A stretch of DNA of 64,000 nucleotides from Desulfocurvibacter africanus subsp. africanus DSM 2603 (lineage in GTDB: Bacteria; Desulfobacterota; Desulfovibrionia; Desulfovibrionales; Desulfovibrionaceae), in NCBI RefSeq assembly GCF_000422545.1, contig NZ_AULZ01000018.1, positions 1 through 64,000 on the forward strand, in the 5' to 3' direction. Shown here piece by piece: positions 18,075 to 43,598 of the stretch. The notes beneath the pieces are model-generated. The model ran no database searches. It saw only the letters and a list, made by a program, of their open reading frames with translations, and was not told where the DNA came from. How positions within the stretch are numbered: the stretch's first letter is position 1; every line of letters begins with the position of its first letter. The translations under genes were made by a program, and so were the position numbers.

Positions 18075-19654
18075 GTTTGGAACGCCTTTCCACCCAGGCC
18101 TTGGTCATCGGCTCGGGCGTGGCTGGCTGCACTGCAGCCTTCGTCCTGGCGGAACAAGGCTTCCAGGTAACGCTCATCACGGCAGGTGACGAGTTGACCC
18201 GAGGCAATACCGTCCTGGCCCAGGGCGGTATCGTTTACAAAGGTGACAACGACTCACCACATGAACTCGAGCGCGACATTCTCATAGCCGGCTGGCGTCA
18301 CAACTACGCCAAAGCTGTGCGTCACTTGGCCGTAAAAGGCCCGGACGCCGTACGCACCATTCTCATAGATAGGCTTGGAGTGCCCTTCGCAACACATGAG
18401 AACGGCTCTTTCTACCTGGCTCGGGAAGGTGGGCATTCCCAGGCTCGCATACTGCACTGCGCCGATTACACGGGCAAGGCCATTATGGAGAGCCTTGTGC
18501 GTGCCGTCCAGGCTTCGCCCAATATCCGCGTGCTCAGCAAACGCACGGCCGTGGACCTTCTGACCACGCACCACCATGCCACGCACCTGGACTTCAAGTA
18601 TTCCTTGAACAATGAGTGCGCAGGGGCCTACGTGCTGGACCAGGATTCCGGGCAGGTGCAGACCATCCTGGCCGATTTCACGGTGCTGGCCACAGGCGGC
18701 TGCGGGCAAATCTTCCTGCATTCGACCAATTCCCGCGGCAGTATCGGCTCGGCCCTGGCCATGGGCTACAGGGCCGGAGTGAAGCTCATGAACGTGGAGT
18801 ACGTCCAGTTCCACCCCACGGCCCTCTTCAAACGAGCCGAGCGGCGCTTCCTCATTTCCGAGGCCGTACGAGGCGAAGGTGCCCGCCTGGTCAATGCCGA
18901 TGGCCAGCCCTTCATGCAACGCTATGACAAGCGGGGCGACCTGGCACCGCGCGACATCGTCACCAGGGCCATTATGGAGGAGATGCTGCGCACCGGAGAG
19001 GAGTCTGTTTACCTGGATGCAGCCCATTATGTGGGCGTGGATATCGCCGAGCGTTTCCCGACCATCTTCGAAAAGTGCATGGAAGCTGGGATAGATATTC
19101 GGCGTGATCCCATACCCGTGGTGCCTGCGGCTCACTATTTCTGCGGAGGTCTACTCACGGACCTAAGCGGCCGAACCACCTTGGACCGCCTGTACGCGGT
19201 TGGTGAATGCGCCTGCACTGGCGTGCATGGCGCCAACCGTTTGGCATCCACGTCGCTTCTGGAAGGGCTTCTGTGGGGCAAGCAGGCCGGCGAGGATATT
19301 TGTCGCCGGTTACAAAAACGGTCCCTGATCAGCAAAAAGCTTAAATCCGCCATTCCGGACTGGAATCCACTGGGCAACCAGGCCAACGAAGATCCGGCTC
19401 TCATTGCCCAGGACTGGGCGTTTATCCGTAATACGATGTGGAACTATGTGGGCATCAGCCGCACCACCGTGCGACTCCGACGCGCCTTTGAGGAATTGCG
19501 CGACCTCAACAAGCACCTGCACGACTTCTACAAGGAAACGCCTATTTCCAAATCCATTGTAGACCTGTTCCACGGCTGTCTGGCGGCCTATCTCATCACC
19601 ACCCAAGCCATGCGCAACAAGCATTCCCTGGGTTGCCATCATCGCAAGGATTGA
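18062..19654 (+). CDS. nadB: L-aspartate oxidase NadB
   Basis: The 530-residue flavoprotein oxidises L-aspartate to iminoaspartate, the substrate of NadA. In anaerobes fumarate can replace oxygen as acceptor. The FAD site is ALVIGSGVAGCTAAFVLA. Other motifs are NTVLAQGGIVY, REGGHSQARI, FHPTALF, RGEGARLVN, HYFCGGL and GVHGANRLASTSLLEGL. The C-terminal helical domain is complete. It overlaps nadA by 13 bases; Met4 (18071) is an alternative start. A MITE-like repeat starts about 60 bases after the stop. Confidence 0.95.
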   Translation: MLQMSLERLSTQALVIGSGVAGCTAAFVLAEQGFQVTLITAGDELTRGNTVLAQGGIVYKGDNDSPHELERDILIAGWRHNYAKAVRHLAVKGPDAVRTILIDRLGVPFATHENGSFYLAREGGHSQARILHCADYTGKAIMESLVRAVQASPNIRVLSKRTAVDLLTTHHHATHLDFKYSLNNECAGAYVLDQDSGQVQTILADFTVLATGGCGQIFLHSTNSRGSIGSALAMGYRAGVKLMNVEYVQFHPTALFKRAERRFLISEAVRGEGARLVNADGQPFMQRYDKRGDLAPRDIVTRAIMEEMLRTGEESVYLDAAHYVGVDIAERFPTIFEKCMEAGIDIRRDPIPVVPAAHYFCGGLLTDLSGRTTLDRLYAVGECACTGVHGANRLASTSLLEGLLWGKQAGEDICRRLQKRSLISKKLKSAIPDWNPLGNQANEDPALIAQDWAFIRNTMWNYVGISRTTVRLRRAFEELRDLNKHLHDFYKETPISKSIVDLFHGCLAAYLITTQAMRNKHSLGCHHRKD

Positions 19655-19712: not shown

Positions 19713-19836
19713 GAGCATTTTGCTTTTGAAAATGCTCTGCAAGCCATGCGTCGGCATGGCTTGCCGCCGCGTAGGCGTAGGCGCAATTCACTTACGCCGT
19801 CAACGCCGGAGCGGGCGTCTTAAAAGCAATCTGCTC
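19713..19836 (+). repeat. MITE-like element, copy 2 (complete)
   Basis: This 124-bp element is flanked by TA at 19711-19712 and 19837-19838. Its left end GAGCATTTTGCTTTT and the inverse of its right end GAGCAGATTGCTTTT match at 13 of 15 positions. Inside are three palindromes: GAGCATTTT/AAAATGCTC at the left end, GCAAGCCATGC/GCATGGCTTGC with a 4-base loop, and GGCGCAA/TTACGCC, which has one mismatch in this copy. No coding frame is present. TA duplication and short size fit a non-autonomous IS630/Tc1-mariner-type MITE. Confidence 0.85.
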
Positions 19837-19902: not shown

Positions 19903-19910
19903 GAACTTTC

Positions 19911-19986
<76 letters not shown>

Positions 19987-20031
19987 AGTGTGCTCCGCAA
20001 GGTCTCTCGGATTCCGTTGCGTTGCGGCAGA
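19987..20031. repeat. duplicated 5' flank of the tRNA-Lys genes
   Basis: About 45 bases directly upstream (minus sense) of the distal tRNA are repeated almost exactly at 20173-20217, with one T/C difference. With the tRNA body, the duplicated unit is about 120 bp inside a 186-bp period. This shows that the pair arose by a recent tandem duplication or is kept alike by gene conversion. Confidence 0.85.
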
Positions 20032-20096
20032 GGCTTTTGCAGCCTCCGCGATATGTCAATTACTTGCCCGCAAATTAATAATGCAGGCTGGAAAAC

Positions 20097-20172
<76 letters not shown>

Positions 20173-20222
20173 AGTGCGCTCCGCAAGGTCTCTCGGATTC
20201 CGTTGCGTTGCGGCAGGTGGAC

Positions 20223-20423: not shown

Positions 20424-22304
20424 ATGATGCGCACGGTCTTCACTCTTCTCCTTACTATCCTGCTCTGGCCGGTCTCGTCAGTTCAGGCCCAACTTCAGAT
20501 GCCCGAGCCTCCACTAAATATCTCCGTGGACTTCGCCAGACTGCCTGACAGCAAGGATAACGCCGAGACCACCGCCGGCGCTGTGCTGGCGGCGGTAACC
20601 ATCATTCCGGAAAAGGGTTGGTATACCTATTCCAACCAGCCAGGCTCTCTGGGTCAGCCTACAGTGCTCACGGCCTCTCTCGCCGGGTCGCCAGAACCTC
20701 TGGAAGTGCGTTATCCACAGGGAGTGCGCAAGCCGGACCCTTTCTCACCCGAGGAGATGGTCAACTTGTACCTGGGCGAGGTGACTTTTTTCGTGCCCTT
20801 GCCCCCGGATGTTGCGCTTCCAGCGGACCTGCGTCTGCATCTATCGCTGCTGCTCTGCTCAGAAAAAAGCTGCATGCCCGTAAGTCTGGAGCGCACGGCC
20901 AGCTTGCGGCAAGCGGAAGCACTGCCCGCAGCCGAAAAGCAACCTTGGTGGCCGGAGTATGGAGCATCTGCGCCCGGTCCCCAGCCAGATCAAGTGGAAC
21001 CGAGGCAGGCCGCCGAACCAGAAACGACTACCGGACCTGAGACGGCCAAGGATGCGCCTGAGGAAAAATGGAGCCTTAATCCGCGCTATTACCAAAGCGA
21101 GCTGGAGGTAGGCAGTATTTGGAAGGCCATTATGCTGGCCTTACTGGCGGGCTTTTTGCTCAACTTCATGCCTTGCGTGCTGCCCGTGGTAAGTCTCAAG
21201 ATATCCAGCCTAGTCTCCGGTTGTGTTCGCGGCGCACAGTGCAGCGAGAGAGCCCGACGCCAAGCGTTCACCGAACATAACTTGTTTTTTGCCGCGGGCA
21301 TTCTGGCCTATTTCTTGGTTCTAAGCTTGGTGCTCAGCCTTTTAGGGCTTGCCTGGGGAGAGTTGTTCCAAAGTCCCAAGCTCATCATGATCCTCTCGGC
21401 CGCGGTCTTCGCCCTGGCCTTGAGCCTGTTCGACGTCTACACCCTGCCTATCATCAACCTGCGTTCAGGCATGATCGACTCCGGCAACCCGCGCGCCTCA
21501 GCCTTTAGCACCGGAGTATTGGCTACCCTGCTTGCCACGCCCTGCAGCGGCCCATTCCTGGGAGGCGTGCTGGCCTGGGCGCTTGTGCAACCGTCGATGG
21601 TCGTGGCCATAGTCTTCATCAGCATCGGCGTCGGTATGGCCCTGCCCTATCTACTCATGTCGGCCTGGCCTGGACTCGTACGGTTCTTCCCCAAGCCCGG
21701 CGCATGGACAGTGAAGCTCGAACGCATCGTGGGCTTTTTTCTGCTGGCCACATGCATATACCTCATCAACATTCTGCCTCAAGACTACCTTCTCTCGGCA
21801 TTGGTGTTGCTGTGGATCACGGGAGTGAGCTTTTGGATCTGGGGAGCCTGGACCGATTTGAATCAGAGCACCCGCAAGCGCTGGACCATTCGTAGCGCCG
21901 CCCTAAGCCTGGTGGTCGCGGCCGCGGCCTGGGCTGTGCAGCCTCCCGAAATATCCGTTCACTGGCGAGACTTTTCAGCCGAGGACTTTCGCGGCAGGCT
22001 TGGTCAGGAACGCCTGCTCGTGGACTTCACGGCCGACTGGTGCGTGAGCTGCAAGTTCCTGGAGCAGACCACGCTGACCGACAAGAACCTGGCGGACTGG
22101 GGAAAAAGATACGGGCTGACCTACATACGCGTGGATCTGACCGAGCAAAATCCCCAGGGCATGTCTCTGTTGCGCGAGCTCGGAAGCCAAAGCATTCCGG
22201 TTGTAGCCGTGTTTCCGCAAGGGAGCGATGCGAACAGGCCGCTCGTACTGCGTGACCTGTTCACCTCCGCGAACATGGAAGAGGCCCTGGATCAGCTCTT
22301 TTAG
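20424..22304 (+). CDS. dsbD: thiol:disulfide interchange protein DsbD
   Basis: The 626-residue protein moves electrons from cytoplasmic thioredoxin across the membrane to periplasmic thiol proteins. It has a signal peptide, an N-terminal periplasmic domain with paired cysteines (CSEKSC), an eight-helix membrane domain with the redox Cys in MPCVLPVVSLK and TPCSGPFLGG, and a C-terminal thioredoxin domain with ADWCVSCKFLE. All six expected cysteines are visible. The stop TAG is formed by the TA target and first G of a MITE-like copy, so the original 3' end may have been altered. Confidence 0.95.
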   Translation: MMRTVFTLLLTILLWPVSSVQAQLQMPEPPLNISVDFARLPDSKDNAETTAGAVLAAVTIIPEKGWYTYSNQPGSLGQPTVLTASLAGSPEPLEVRYPQGVRKPDPFSPEEMVNLYLGEVTFFVPLPPDVALPADLRLHLSLLLCSEKSCMPVSLERTASLRQAEALPAAEKQPWWPEYGASAPGPQPDQVEPRQAAEPETTTGPETAKDAPEEKWSLNPRYYQSELEVGSIWKAIMLALLAGFLLNFMPCVLPVVSLKISSLVSGCVRGAQCSERARRQAFTEHNLFFAAGILAYFLVLSLVLSLLGLAWGELFQSPKLIMILSAAVFALALSLFDVYTLPIINLRSGMIDSGNPRASAFSTGVLATLLATPCSGPFLGGVLAWALVQPSMVVAIVFISIGVGMALPYLLMSAWPGLVRFFPKPGAWTVKLERIVGFFLLATCIYLINILPQDYLLSALVLLWITGVSFWIWGAWTDLNQSTRKRWTIRSAALSLVVAAAAWAVQPPEISVHWRDFSAEDFRGRLGQERLLVDFTADWCVSCKFLEQTTLTDKNLADWGKRYGLTYIRVDLTEQNPQGMSLLRELGSQSIPVVAVFPQGSDANRPLVLRDLFTSANMEEALDQLF

Positions 22305-22428
22305 AGCATTTTGCTTTTGAAAATGCTCTGCAAGCCATGCGTCGGCATGGCTTGCCGCTAGCTTCGGCGTAGGCGCAATTCACTTGCACCGTCAACGCCG
22401 GAGCGGGCGTCTTAAAAGCGATCTGCCC
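22304..22428 (+). repeat. MITE-like element, copy 3, inserted at the dsbD stop codon
   Basis: This 125-bp copy is flanked by TA at 22302-22303 and 22429-22430. Those first two bases plus the element's first G are the dsbD stop codon TAG. The right end has GCCC instead of GCTC, and the third hairpin has one mismatch (TTGCACC). The first two hairpins are perfect. Confidence 0.85.
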
Positions 22429-22463
22429 TACAGCACCTTGCAAATAAAATGAAAAATGGGGGT

Positions 22464-22521
22464 GCAGGGAGCGCCGCTCCCTGCCGGGAGAGAGTCTGAG
22501 AGAGGGCAGCGCCCTCTCTCA
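22464..22521. terminator. double hairpin between convergent dsbD and the M24 peptidase gene
   Basis: Two perfect stem-loops follow each other: GCAGGGAGC/GCTCCCTGC (22464-22484, loop of 3) and TGAGAGAGGGC/GCCCTCTCTCA (22497-22521, loop of 3). They lie between genes that converge, as bidirectional terminators do, but no T-run follows either one. Similar two-hairpin GC-rich repeats occur in other Desulfovibrio-type genomes. Confidence 0.5.
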
Positions 22522-22567
22522 GTTCAAACGCAAATTGCTCTAATTTGGGAGAGCCACGCGGATCAGA

Positions 22568-40985: not shown

Positions 40986-41363
40986 GTGCACAAGCTCGTC
41001 CTCATGGCCATGGCCGGCGCTGCCGGGACACTGGCGCGCTACGGTCTGGCTCAGGCCGTGCAGCGCTTGTCCGGCCAAGGATTCCCCACCGGCACCTTTG
41101 CAGTCAATGTGCTGGGGAGTTTCTTGTTCGGGCTGGTCTGGACCCTGTGTGAAGACCGACTGCCCATGGGCAGCGAGGTGCGCATAGTGCTTCTGACCGG
41201 CTTCATGGGCGCGTTCACCACGTTCTCGACCTTTATGTTCGAAAGCTCGGCCCTGCTTAAGCACGGACAATGGATGTATGCTCTTCTCAATATCGGCGGA
41301 CAGACGCTGCTCGGTCTGTTTGCCTTGACCCTGGGCATAGCCGCAGCCAAGCTGCGCTTTTAG
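40986..41363 (+). CDS. crcB: fluoride exporter CrcB/Fluc
   Basis: This 125-residue protein has four membrane helices and forms dimeric F- channels. Motifs are GAAGTLARYG, GTFAVNVLGSFLFG and GFMGAFTTFSTFMFES, the last holding the phenylalanine box and the central Na+ site region. The start is GTG with AAGGAGG at 40974-40980. The TAG stop is made of the TA target and the first base of a MITE-like copy. I see no fluoride riboswitch in the 90 bases upstream. Confidence 0.94.
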   Translation: MHKLVLMAMAGAAGTLARYGLAQAVQRLSGQGFPTGTFAVNVLGSFLFGLVWTLCEDRLPMGSEVRIVLLTGFMGAFTTFSTFMFESSALLKHGQWMYALLNIGGQTLLGLFALTLGIAAAKLRF

Positions 41364-41486
41364 AGCATTTTGCTTTTGAAAATGCTCTGCAAGCCATGCG
41401 TCGGCATGGCTTGCCGCCCCGCAGGCGTAGGCGGAATGTAATTCCGCCGTCAACGCCGAAGGGAGCGTCTGAAATGCAAAATGCTT
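41363..41486 (+). repeat. MITE-like element, copy 4, inserted at the crcB stop codon
   Basis: This 124-bp copy is flanked by TA at 41361-41362 and 41487-41488. The third hairpin differs from other copies but stays paired: GGCGGAAT (41430-41437) with ATTCCGCC (41441-41448), in place of GGCGCAA/TTGCGCC. The right end reads ATGCAAAATGCTT, closer to the inverse of the left end than in other copies. It is the most diverged copy. It lies between crcB and its DUF190 partner. Confidence 0.85.
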
Positions 41487-41504
41487 TAGAGTGTGGAGGC
41501 TGAC

Positions 41505-41855
41505 ATGAACATACCGCAACAAGCCATGAGGCTGCGCATCTACATCGGGGAAGACTACCGCCATGGCGGCAGGCCCCTGTTCGAGATCATCGTCGAACAA
41601 GCACGCCGACAAGGCTTGGCCGGCGCCACCGTGCTGCGAGGACTATCAGGGTTCGGCGCGAACAGCCGCATCAAGACCTCCAAAATCCTTATGCTCTCGG
41701 AGGATCTACCGCTGGTGGTGGAGATCGTAGATGCGCAGGATAAGATCGAACGCTTTCTCCCCTATGTTGATGAAGTCGTAGGCGAAGGGCTGGTAACCAT
41801 GGAGCCGGTTACGGTCATCTTCTACCGGCACTCGGGAGCGGGCGGCAAGCCGTAG
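41505..41855 (+). CDS. DUF190 protein, CrcB-associated
   Basis: The 116-residue protein is of the DUF190 family: MRLRIYIGEDYRHGGRPLFEIIVEQAR, GATVLRGLSGFG and a strand set ending PVTVIFYRH. The fold is ferredoxin-like and resembles PII proteins. DUF190 genes very often adjoin crcB, which suggests a regulatory role in fluoride export, not shown directly. The start 41505 has TGGAGG 5 bases upstream, only a few bases beyond the MITE-like copy. Confidence 0.88.
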   Translation: MNIPQQAMRLRIYIGEDYRHGGRPLFEIIVEQARRQGLAGATVLRGLSGFGANSRIKTSKILMLSEDLPLVVEIVDAQDKIERFLPYVDEVVGEGLVTMEPVTVIFYRHSGAGGKP

Positions 41856-42479: not shown

Positions 42480-43598
42480 GTAGCCATTGGTCGGTAGGGA
42501 CGCAACTAAAGGCAGATACGAAACAGAATCACCGCCCGCCTGCGCGTCAAGGGCACAATGGCCTTGACCCAGGCCGCTTCTGGCCAGAAGCTTATTGTAA
42601 AGCGCTGCCGCTCCCGGGTCCCTGGCTCAAAAGACTTAAGGCCGCCTCGATGATTAGGCTGTGAAGCCGCTCTGGCCGCTGGTTGGAGCCGCCTTTGGCC
42701 TTGCTCTCGCCGTTTTGGCGGACAACGGGCGCAAGGCCAAGGTAGGAAGCGACCTCCCCGGCCTGAGCGCTTCGCTCAGGCCGGAAAGCTCCTGGCGAAA
42801 AGTCGCGGCAACGATCAGGCTAACACCCGGCACGCTCCTCAGATAGATATGCAATAGCCTGCGCGTGTTCATTCCATTGGGTAATCTCCTGGAGTTGACG
42901 GGACACCAGGACCATCTCGCCTGCAGCAGGCGAAGCAGATGCAGAAGACTCTGGAGCGCCAGCCGGCTTGTTACAGGCAGAGCTAGACCGGTCACGGGCC
43001 TCCAAGGCGTGTCGGCCCAGGAAGCAAGCCTCAGGGGCTCCAGATGCCAAGGCAAAGCAGAGGCGAGCGGATGCACTGCCTGGTGCGCCGCAGGTCGTCG
43101 GCCAAGGCATGGCGCTGGCGCAGAAATGTCCTGTCGTTTTCCTGCTCTTTGTCTGGCATGGTGATGGAGGCGAGCATGCCCTGCTCGGCGTACTCAGCGA
43201 GCTTGCGGCAGTAAAGCCGGTCGGTCTTGGCCAGGTGTCACGGGATGAGGAATGCGACTTAGAGCAGATTGCTTTTAAGACGCCCGCTCCGGCGTTGACG
43301 GCGCAAGTGAATTGCGCCTACGCCGAAGCTAGCGGCAAGCCATGCCGACGCATGGCTTGCAGAGCATTTTCAAAAGCAAAATGCTCTAGGGCGCGACCAG
43401 ATATCCCGCTGGGTCCGGCCTCGTAGAAGACAGCTGCCAAGCGGATATCCAGTCGTTGCAGAGATGTAGCAAGGTCTACGGGCTAGGCCGGAGCGATCCA
43501 GGTCAAGGTTGGGTCATCGCATCGGGTAAGGCCTCGGAGTAGCTGTGCTTATGCACATTGATCCCCGTATGGAAAATTTGGCCTCGAAAGCCGTCCAT
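42480..43598 (-). pseudogene. decayed IS110-family transposase carrying a MITE-like insertion
   Basis: The minus strand, read through several frames, matches IS110-type DEDD transposases. The N-terminal part has GINVHKHSYSEAL (catalytic Asp of the usual GIDVHK changed to Asn), then RLDIRLAAVFYEAGPSGI. After the MITE-like copy come KTDRLYCRKLAEYAEQGML, a coiled middle, and LRSVPGVSLIVAATFRQELSG with EVASYLGLAPVVRQNGESKAK from the transposase_20 domain. Frameshifts, stops and the inserted repeat make it dead. Exact ends of the original element cannot be seen. Confidence 0.78.
43262..43386 (-). repeat. MITE-like element, copy 5, nested in the IS110 remnant
   Basis: This 125-bp copy lies in reverse orientation, with TA at 43260-43261 and 43387-43388. 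Both ends (GAGCAGATTGCTTTT and, inverted, GAGCATTTTGCTTTT) and all three internal hairpins are intact. It is inserted between the VFYEAGPSGI and KTDRLYCRKL parts of the transposase pseudogene. This shows mobility after the IS110 copy arrived. Confidence 0.88.

Follow-up and report, generated by a model that had tools for sequence, protein, structure and literature searches.

The window, a 64,000-nucleotide stretch of a Desulfocurvibacter africanus contig, carries on its forward strand the gene dsbD (20424..22304), which encodes a protein of 626 amino acids with DsbD_N, DsbD_TM and thioredoxin-like domains. The gene ends CTC TTT TAG, and this stop codon is made jointly by the host and a mobile element. 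Bases 1 and 2 are the left TA of the target duplication (22302..22303, + strand, from the sequence), and the G at 22304 is the first base of a 125-nt copy of a repeat that we call MITE-A (22304..22428, +). The insert is compound and contains more than this one 125-nt element: MITE-A is followed by a TA common to two elements (22429..22430, +), by a second element of 110 nt, MITE-B (22431..22540, +), and by an outer TA (22541..22542, +), after which the next base is A. Since the outer TA lies at the far end of the compound insert, the empty site, obtained by removing the insert and one TA, has a TAA stop and reads TTT TA|A TTT GGG. In a comparison with 28 relatives, the offset at the C end of DsbD is -1 to +7 residues for 27 and +21 for one; a 29th locus (L193), which matches in mid-protein only, was excluded. 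Upstream, between a gene ending at 19654 and dsbD, lies a 121-nt direct repeat (19910-20216) whose two copies are 99% identical and 186 nt apart, start to start.

A second gene in the window, crcB (40986..41363, +; PF02537, 125 amino acids), ends CGC TTT TAG in the same way. The left TA supplies bases 1 and 2 of its stop codon (41361..41362, +), and a 124-nt MITE-A copy of the subfamily ending TTTA (41363..41486, +) separates it from a DUF190 gene with its ATG at 41505. The right TA (41487..41488, +) is followed by G, and the empty site is TTT TA|G AGT, that is, TAG. The C end of CrcB falls within 2 residues of 27 of 29 relatives, with two outliers at +15 and -6. A first-pass annotation of the window had proposed that the initial G of the element rebuilds TAG at both genes and leaves the proteins unchanged in length. 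The junction sequences confirm the rebuilding, and the unchanged length is borne out by the empty sites, TAA and TAG, and by C ends that match most relatives.

In all, the window holds four complete MITE-A copies and one fragment ending at the contig edge (1..99, +). The remaining complete copies are both intergenic, at target CTTTAG (19713..19836, +) and at target CTTAG (43262..43386, -). Two of the four complete copies thus lie at stop codons, as had been stated, at dsbD and crcB. Taken as a sign of excess, this count fails: at the rate of 28 in 130 found below, the probability of at least two in four is about 0.2, and the window alone gives no sign of an excess.

We therefore turned to the genome. 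A search of its 4.40 Mb with the 27-nt left end of MITE-A, allowing up to 3 mismatches, gave 302 matches, and the reversed 27-nt control gave none in the same sequence. In a first sample of 1.66 Mb (sample 1), TA flanks both sides of 117 of 141 left-end candidates. These 117 are the complete copies, and 113 of them measure 120-130 nt, too short for a transposase gene; in this length range there are 92 distinct sequences, whose median identity over 800 sampled pairs is 0.93. The element has terminal inverted repeats, TAGAGCATTTTGC on the left and TAGAGCAGATTGC or TAAAGCATTTTGC on the right, which pair with each other in the fold, and the crcB copy folds with an MFE of -67.3 (z -7.4 against shuffles). 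At the left end, TA is followed by G in 117/117 copies, giving TAG; the right end gives TAG in 80, TAA in 35 and TAT in 2, so that 115/117 read TAG or TAA. An alignment of the 92 sequences separates subfamilies that differ by paired hairpin changes, such as C-G replaced by G-C at columns 72/82 (10 of 92 sequences), and these paired changes suggest that the stems have been kept. Among 39 genomes examined, matches to the element were seen in four, including its own, and were weak in the other three. Contigs C1, C11 and C14 start, and C9 ends, in MITE-A copies; the assembly thus breaks at the repeat, and copies at the breaks may be under-counted.

MITE-B is a second MITE family, probably younger than MITE-A. 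Sample 1 contains five full-length copies that are 100% identical, namely the dsbD copy and four others, and two more at 98-99%. At one of its ends the TA is followed by CAG, and this end would not restore a stop codon. One copy (C2:248290-248401) appears to occupy a stop codon, the G end facing the gene and the other border reading CA, not TA; this placement comes from ORF calls made with the element left in the sequence.

Nested insertions document the TA duplication. A MITE-B lies within a MITE-A at GTCT-TA-AAAGC, a TTAA (C1:353262), and removing it with one TA restores the MITE-A sequence. Similarly, removing the element and one TA leaves the host-repeat length unchanged for a MITE-A within a MITE-A (C40_77277) and for a MITE-A within a MITE-B-like repeat (C1_165743); at a third such site (C2_290195), the alignment is too poor to judge. 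The same genome has four matches to the IS630-like transposase family PF13358. Two of these IS630-like copies were examined at both ends; three ends, TAAAGCAACTTGC, TAAAGCACTTTGC and TAAAGCAGCTTGC, fit RAGCANNTTGC and are similar, though not identical, to the MITE-A ends TAGAGCATTTTGC and TAGAGCAGATTGC; the fourth, TAGAGCAGTTCTC, fits partly and agrees with them in its first half only. Judging from these related ends, MITE-A would be moved by an IS630-like transposase that this genome encodes. In an IS630-like element with PF13358 (L130:1-1096, contig C35 of this genome, G000), two ORFs flank a run of A and are in different frames; one of its ends adjoins MITE-A sequence at what would be the internal TTAA of the MITE, and the other lies at a contig edge. 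This junction suggests that the IS630-like element and the MITE use the same type of target.

We then tallied where the copies lie. Sample 1 yielded 113 targets from the 141 candidates, after exclusion of 24 without TA at both ends or a recognizable right end, 3 at an edge and 1 overlapping; seven stretches of C5 and C9 in it had been picked for listed copies, and the other contigs were tiled nearly end to end. A second sample (sample 2), in which C3 and C4 were tiled in part, gave 17 targets from 20 candidates, with 3 left out, under the gene model of sample 1. Pooled, the two samples cover 2.06 of 4.40 Mb, or 47% of the genome, and contain 130 complete copies. Genes were called with a simple caller of our own (coding fraction 83%); any genes it missed would lower the intergenic rate and bias the tally toward an apparent stop excess. 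Among the stops predicted in the 1.66-Mb sample, TAG is the commonest (574 TAG, 487 TGA and 334 TAA).

Twenty-eight of the 130 copies are at stop codons, 97 are intergenic and 5 are in predicted coding sequence. Sample 1 contributed 26, 83 and 4, against 907, 10,604 and 24,107 background TA sites in these classes; sample 2 contributed 2, 14 and 1, against 214, 1,985 and 5,207. Over all TA sites, stop codons are occupied at 28/1,121 and intergenic sites at 97/12,589 (odds ratio [OR] 3.3, p 7 × 10⁻⁷). The excess at stop codons over random intergenic TA, which the first-pass annotation had expected, is thus present in the 47% of the genome covered.

The element does not treat all TA sites alike. 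A YTAR core is present at 95/113 targets in sample 1, compared with 4,123/35,626 TA sites, and at 15/17 targets in sample 2 (pooled, 110/130). Read in the orientation of the element, sample 1 targets have T or C at -1 in 97/113 and A or G at +1 in 108/113, and each additional T before the core, or A after it, raises occupancy (OR 1.4 to 2.0). At sites outside coding sequence, occupancy is higher for TTAA (31/724) and TTAG (31/549) than for CTAG (11/552). The two junctions in the window share the context CTTTTA, to which attention had been drawn, and this is indeed a favored target: it is found at 12/109 stop or intergenic targets vs 164/11,511 such TA sites, and among T-rich YTAR sites outside genes it is occupied more often than the rest (10/96 vs 34/677). 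We rejected it as a marker for stop codons, since it occurs at 8/83 intergenic targets as well as at 4/26 stop targets; CTTTTA is a real general target preference, not one for stop codons.

The core has a consequence for coding sequence. Because YTAR is palindromic, both strands read TAR, a stop codon, and an in-frame YTAR is therefore confined to stop codons. Within predicted genes, 11,386 of 24,161 TA sites occupy codon positions 1 and 2, and by definition none of these is a YTAR. Once sites are matched for the core and for the side of the gene, little remains that is special to stop codons. Pooled YTAR sites are occupied at 24/495 stops (4.8%) and at 85/2,437 of all intergenic positions (3.5%; p 0.15, not significant). 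The 3' flank within 200 nt reaches 39/682 (5.7%), which does not differ from stops (p 0.60) and lends no support to targeting of stop codons as such. The 5' side stands at 36/1,399 (2.6%; p 0.017 vs stops), and only 1/2,008 YTAR sites in coding sequence is occupied. In a logistic model of YTAR sites that includes flanking bases, the OR relative to the 3' flank is 1.1 for stops (95% CI 0.62-1.84), 0.40 for the 5' side (0.24-0.64) and 0.40 for the 3' side beyond 200 nt (0.17-0.76).

Sites were also weighted by local sequence. Against downstream flanks, three models of increasing width expect 27.4, 24.6 and 21.9 copies at stops, where 28 are observed (p 0.90, 0.46 and 0.13); in the widest, the stop rate is 1.45 times that of the flanks (p 0.13), which leaves room for a mild extra preference for stops. 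Against all intergenic sites, the same 28 compare with 17.3, 13.8 and 12.2 expected (p 0.009 to 3 × 10⁻⁵; sample 1 alone, p 4 × 10⁻⁶), and a stratified test agrees (Mantel-Haenszel [MH] OR 2.2, z 3.0). The stop excess vanishes only when the comparison is with downstream flanks: stop codons behave like the rest of the preferred sites in the immediate 3' flank of a gene.

At all 26 stop-codon junctions of sample 1 the codon reads TAG, and the empty sites are 10 TAA and 16 TAG, a stop being present there by definition of the class. Both ends of MITE-A supply a stop, so orientation hardly matters; 16 of the 26 copies lie in the same orientation as the gene and 10 in the opposite one. The genes concerned include those for DnaA, a class I tRNA synthetase and an AcrB-family protein, and a Pfam match was found in 24/26, one of them below the cut-off, with two lacking a match. 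A TA followed by a purine end makes a stop codon wherever it is in frame, and the same property therefore truncates genes at Tyr codons: in three of the four coding-sequence cases of sample 1, a Tyr codon has become TAG or TAA, 40, 19 and 2 residues before the old end.

We consider it very probable that target preference together with the loss of harmful insertions explains the copies at stop codons, with no need for stop-codon targeting. Insertions would occur at YTAR everywhere; those within genes, and many of those upstream of genes, would be lost by selection, and those on a stop codon or just downstream of it would be nearly neutral and hence remain. A YTAR with its TA at codon positions 1 and 2 is TAA or TAG by definition, and TA plus the element end then gives a new stop; recognition of stop codons, genes or translation is not required. 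The stop excess thus arises because the target core coincides with TAA and TAG and because copies are depleted from coding sequence and from the upstream sides of genes. Selection for harmless sites, which the annotation had offered as the alternative to targeting, stands in this light only as selection against harmful ones, which we infer; the stronger form does not. Points against this reading are that only 2 of the 17 targets of sample 2 are at stops, and that in one genome selective loss and avoidance at insertion would look the same.

The element could instead be steered toward stop codons or the 3' ends of genes through termination of translation or transcription or through DNA structure. 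The 28/130 copies at stops, with 3.3-fold odds over all intergenic TA, would fit such guidance, as would the higher occupancy of YTAR in 3' flanks than on 5' sides (OR 2.3, p 0.0006). Yet stops are no commoner as targets than other downstream YTAR sites (OR 1.1), and a difference between the 3' and 5' sides is expected from the loss of promoter-damaging insertions, as in the excerpts of the work on pneumococcal repeats (PMC3049150); we regard guidance of this kind as unlikely. About as improbable is that the repeat is favored at gene ends since it serves as an RNA hairpin at the mRNA 3' end, as a terminator or stabilizer. The very stable fold of the crcB copy, the few paired changes between subfamilies and the larger number of copies per YTAR site in 3' flanks than on 5' sides are in its favor, but terminal repeats alone make a MITE fold well, the hairpins have no T run following them in the sequence, the crcB copy stops 16 nt short of the following gene's ATG, and orientation at stops is mixed. 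A terminator function at dsbD was rejected, since the scan gave just two terminator-like matches, both short stems spanning junctions. An Rfam search of 401 bases around the crcB copy returned one match, far below the cut-off.

That the reading frames were once longer and were cut short by the element, the TAG at the junction arising from insertion at positions 1 and 2 of any codon, we hold to be very improbable. Three of the four coding-sequence cases of sample 1 are of exactly this kind; however, the empty sites at dsbD and crcB are TAA and TAG and the C ends match relatives, a comparison that covers these two of the 26 stop cases, and the other 24 keep a stop at the empty site by definition, most of them with Pfam domains. 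Returning to target preference with selective loss, one may ask whether the YTAR core and the G or A ends are an evolved self-insulating design that lets about 300 copies persist at little cost. We think this doubtful; if it were true, elements with an end starting with C, such as MITE-B, should be rarer, or should occur at stops only with the other end facing the gene.

The outcome replaces a targeting hypothesis with a simple rule, testable in any genome with IS630-type elements: YTAR reads TAR on both strands, its only in-frame targets are stops, and an end whose first base is a purine preserves the stop. The outcome also indicates the right null for any claimed excess of insertions at a class of site: sites are first to be matched for core sequence and for gene side. 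In the open-access literature searched we saw no report of the stop-codon coincidence, and we do not claim that it is unpublished; the excerpts of the RUP papers (PMC2229807, PMC3049150) contain no tally against stop codons that we saw. The present addition is twofold: with a YTAR core, stops are the sole in-frame targets, and both element ends restore the stop.

MITE-A is a new MITE family, probably of IS630 type, high in copy number and non-autonomous, which we compare with RUP and MITEPlu5 by description only. As excerpted, the reports on RUP of Streptococcus pneumoniae describe an element of about 107 bp with a TA target and about 110 copies, intergenic like MITE-A, whose ends resemble a resident IS630, with IS630-Spn1 as the proposed mover (PMC2229807, PMC3049150); unlike MITE-A, RUP is AT-rich (27.5% GC), and the likeness is drawn without alignment. 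BOX, RUP and SPRITE are over-represented between convergent genes, which the excerpted account attributes to weaker selection downstream (PMC3049150). MITEPlu5 of Photorhabdus, related to ERIC, is reported to be 123 bp long, with 552 complete copies, a strong fold and similarity to an IS630 subtype (PMC6267812); it too is likened to MITE-A by description, not by sequence. MITEPsy1 of Pseudomonas syringae, in the excerpted report, resembles MITE-A in its length of 100 nt and its insertion at CTAG or YTAA, and differs in a 4-nt duplication and a resemblance to ISPsy2 of the IS5 family (PMC3189936).

For IS630 itself, Tenzen and Ohtsubo reportedly found in 1991 that the target is the TA in 5'-CTAG-3'. 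Like that target, the one used by MITE-A is a TA within a palindromic core of YTAR type; unlike IS630, MITE-A occupies TTAA and TTAG more often than CTAG.
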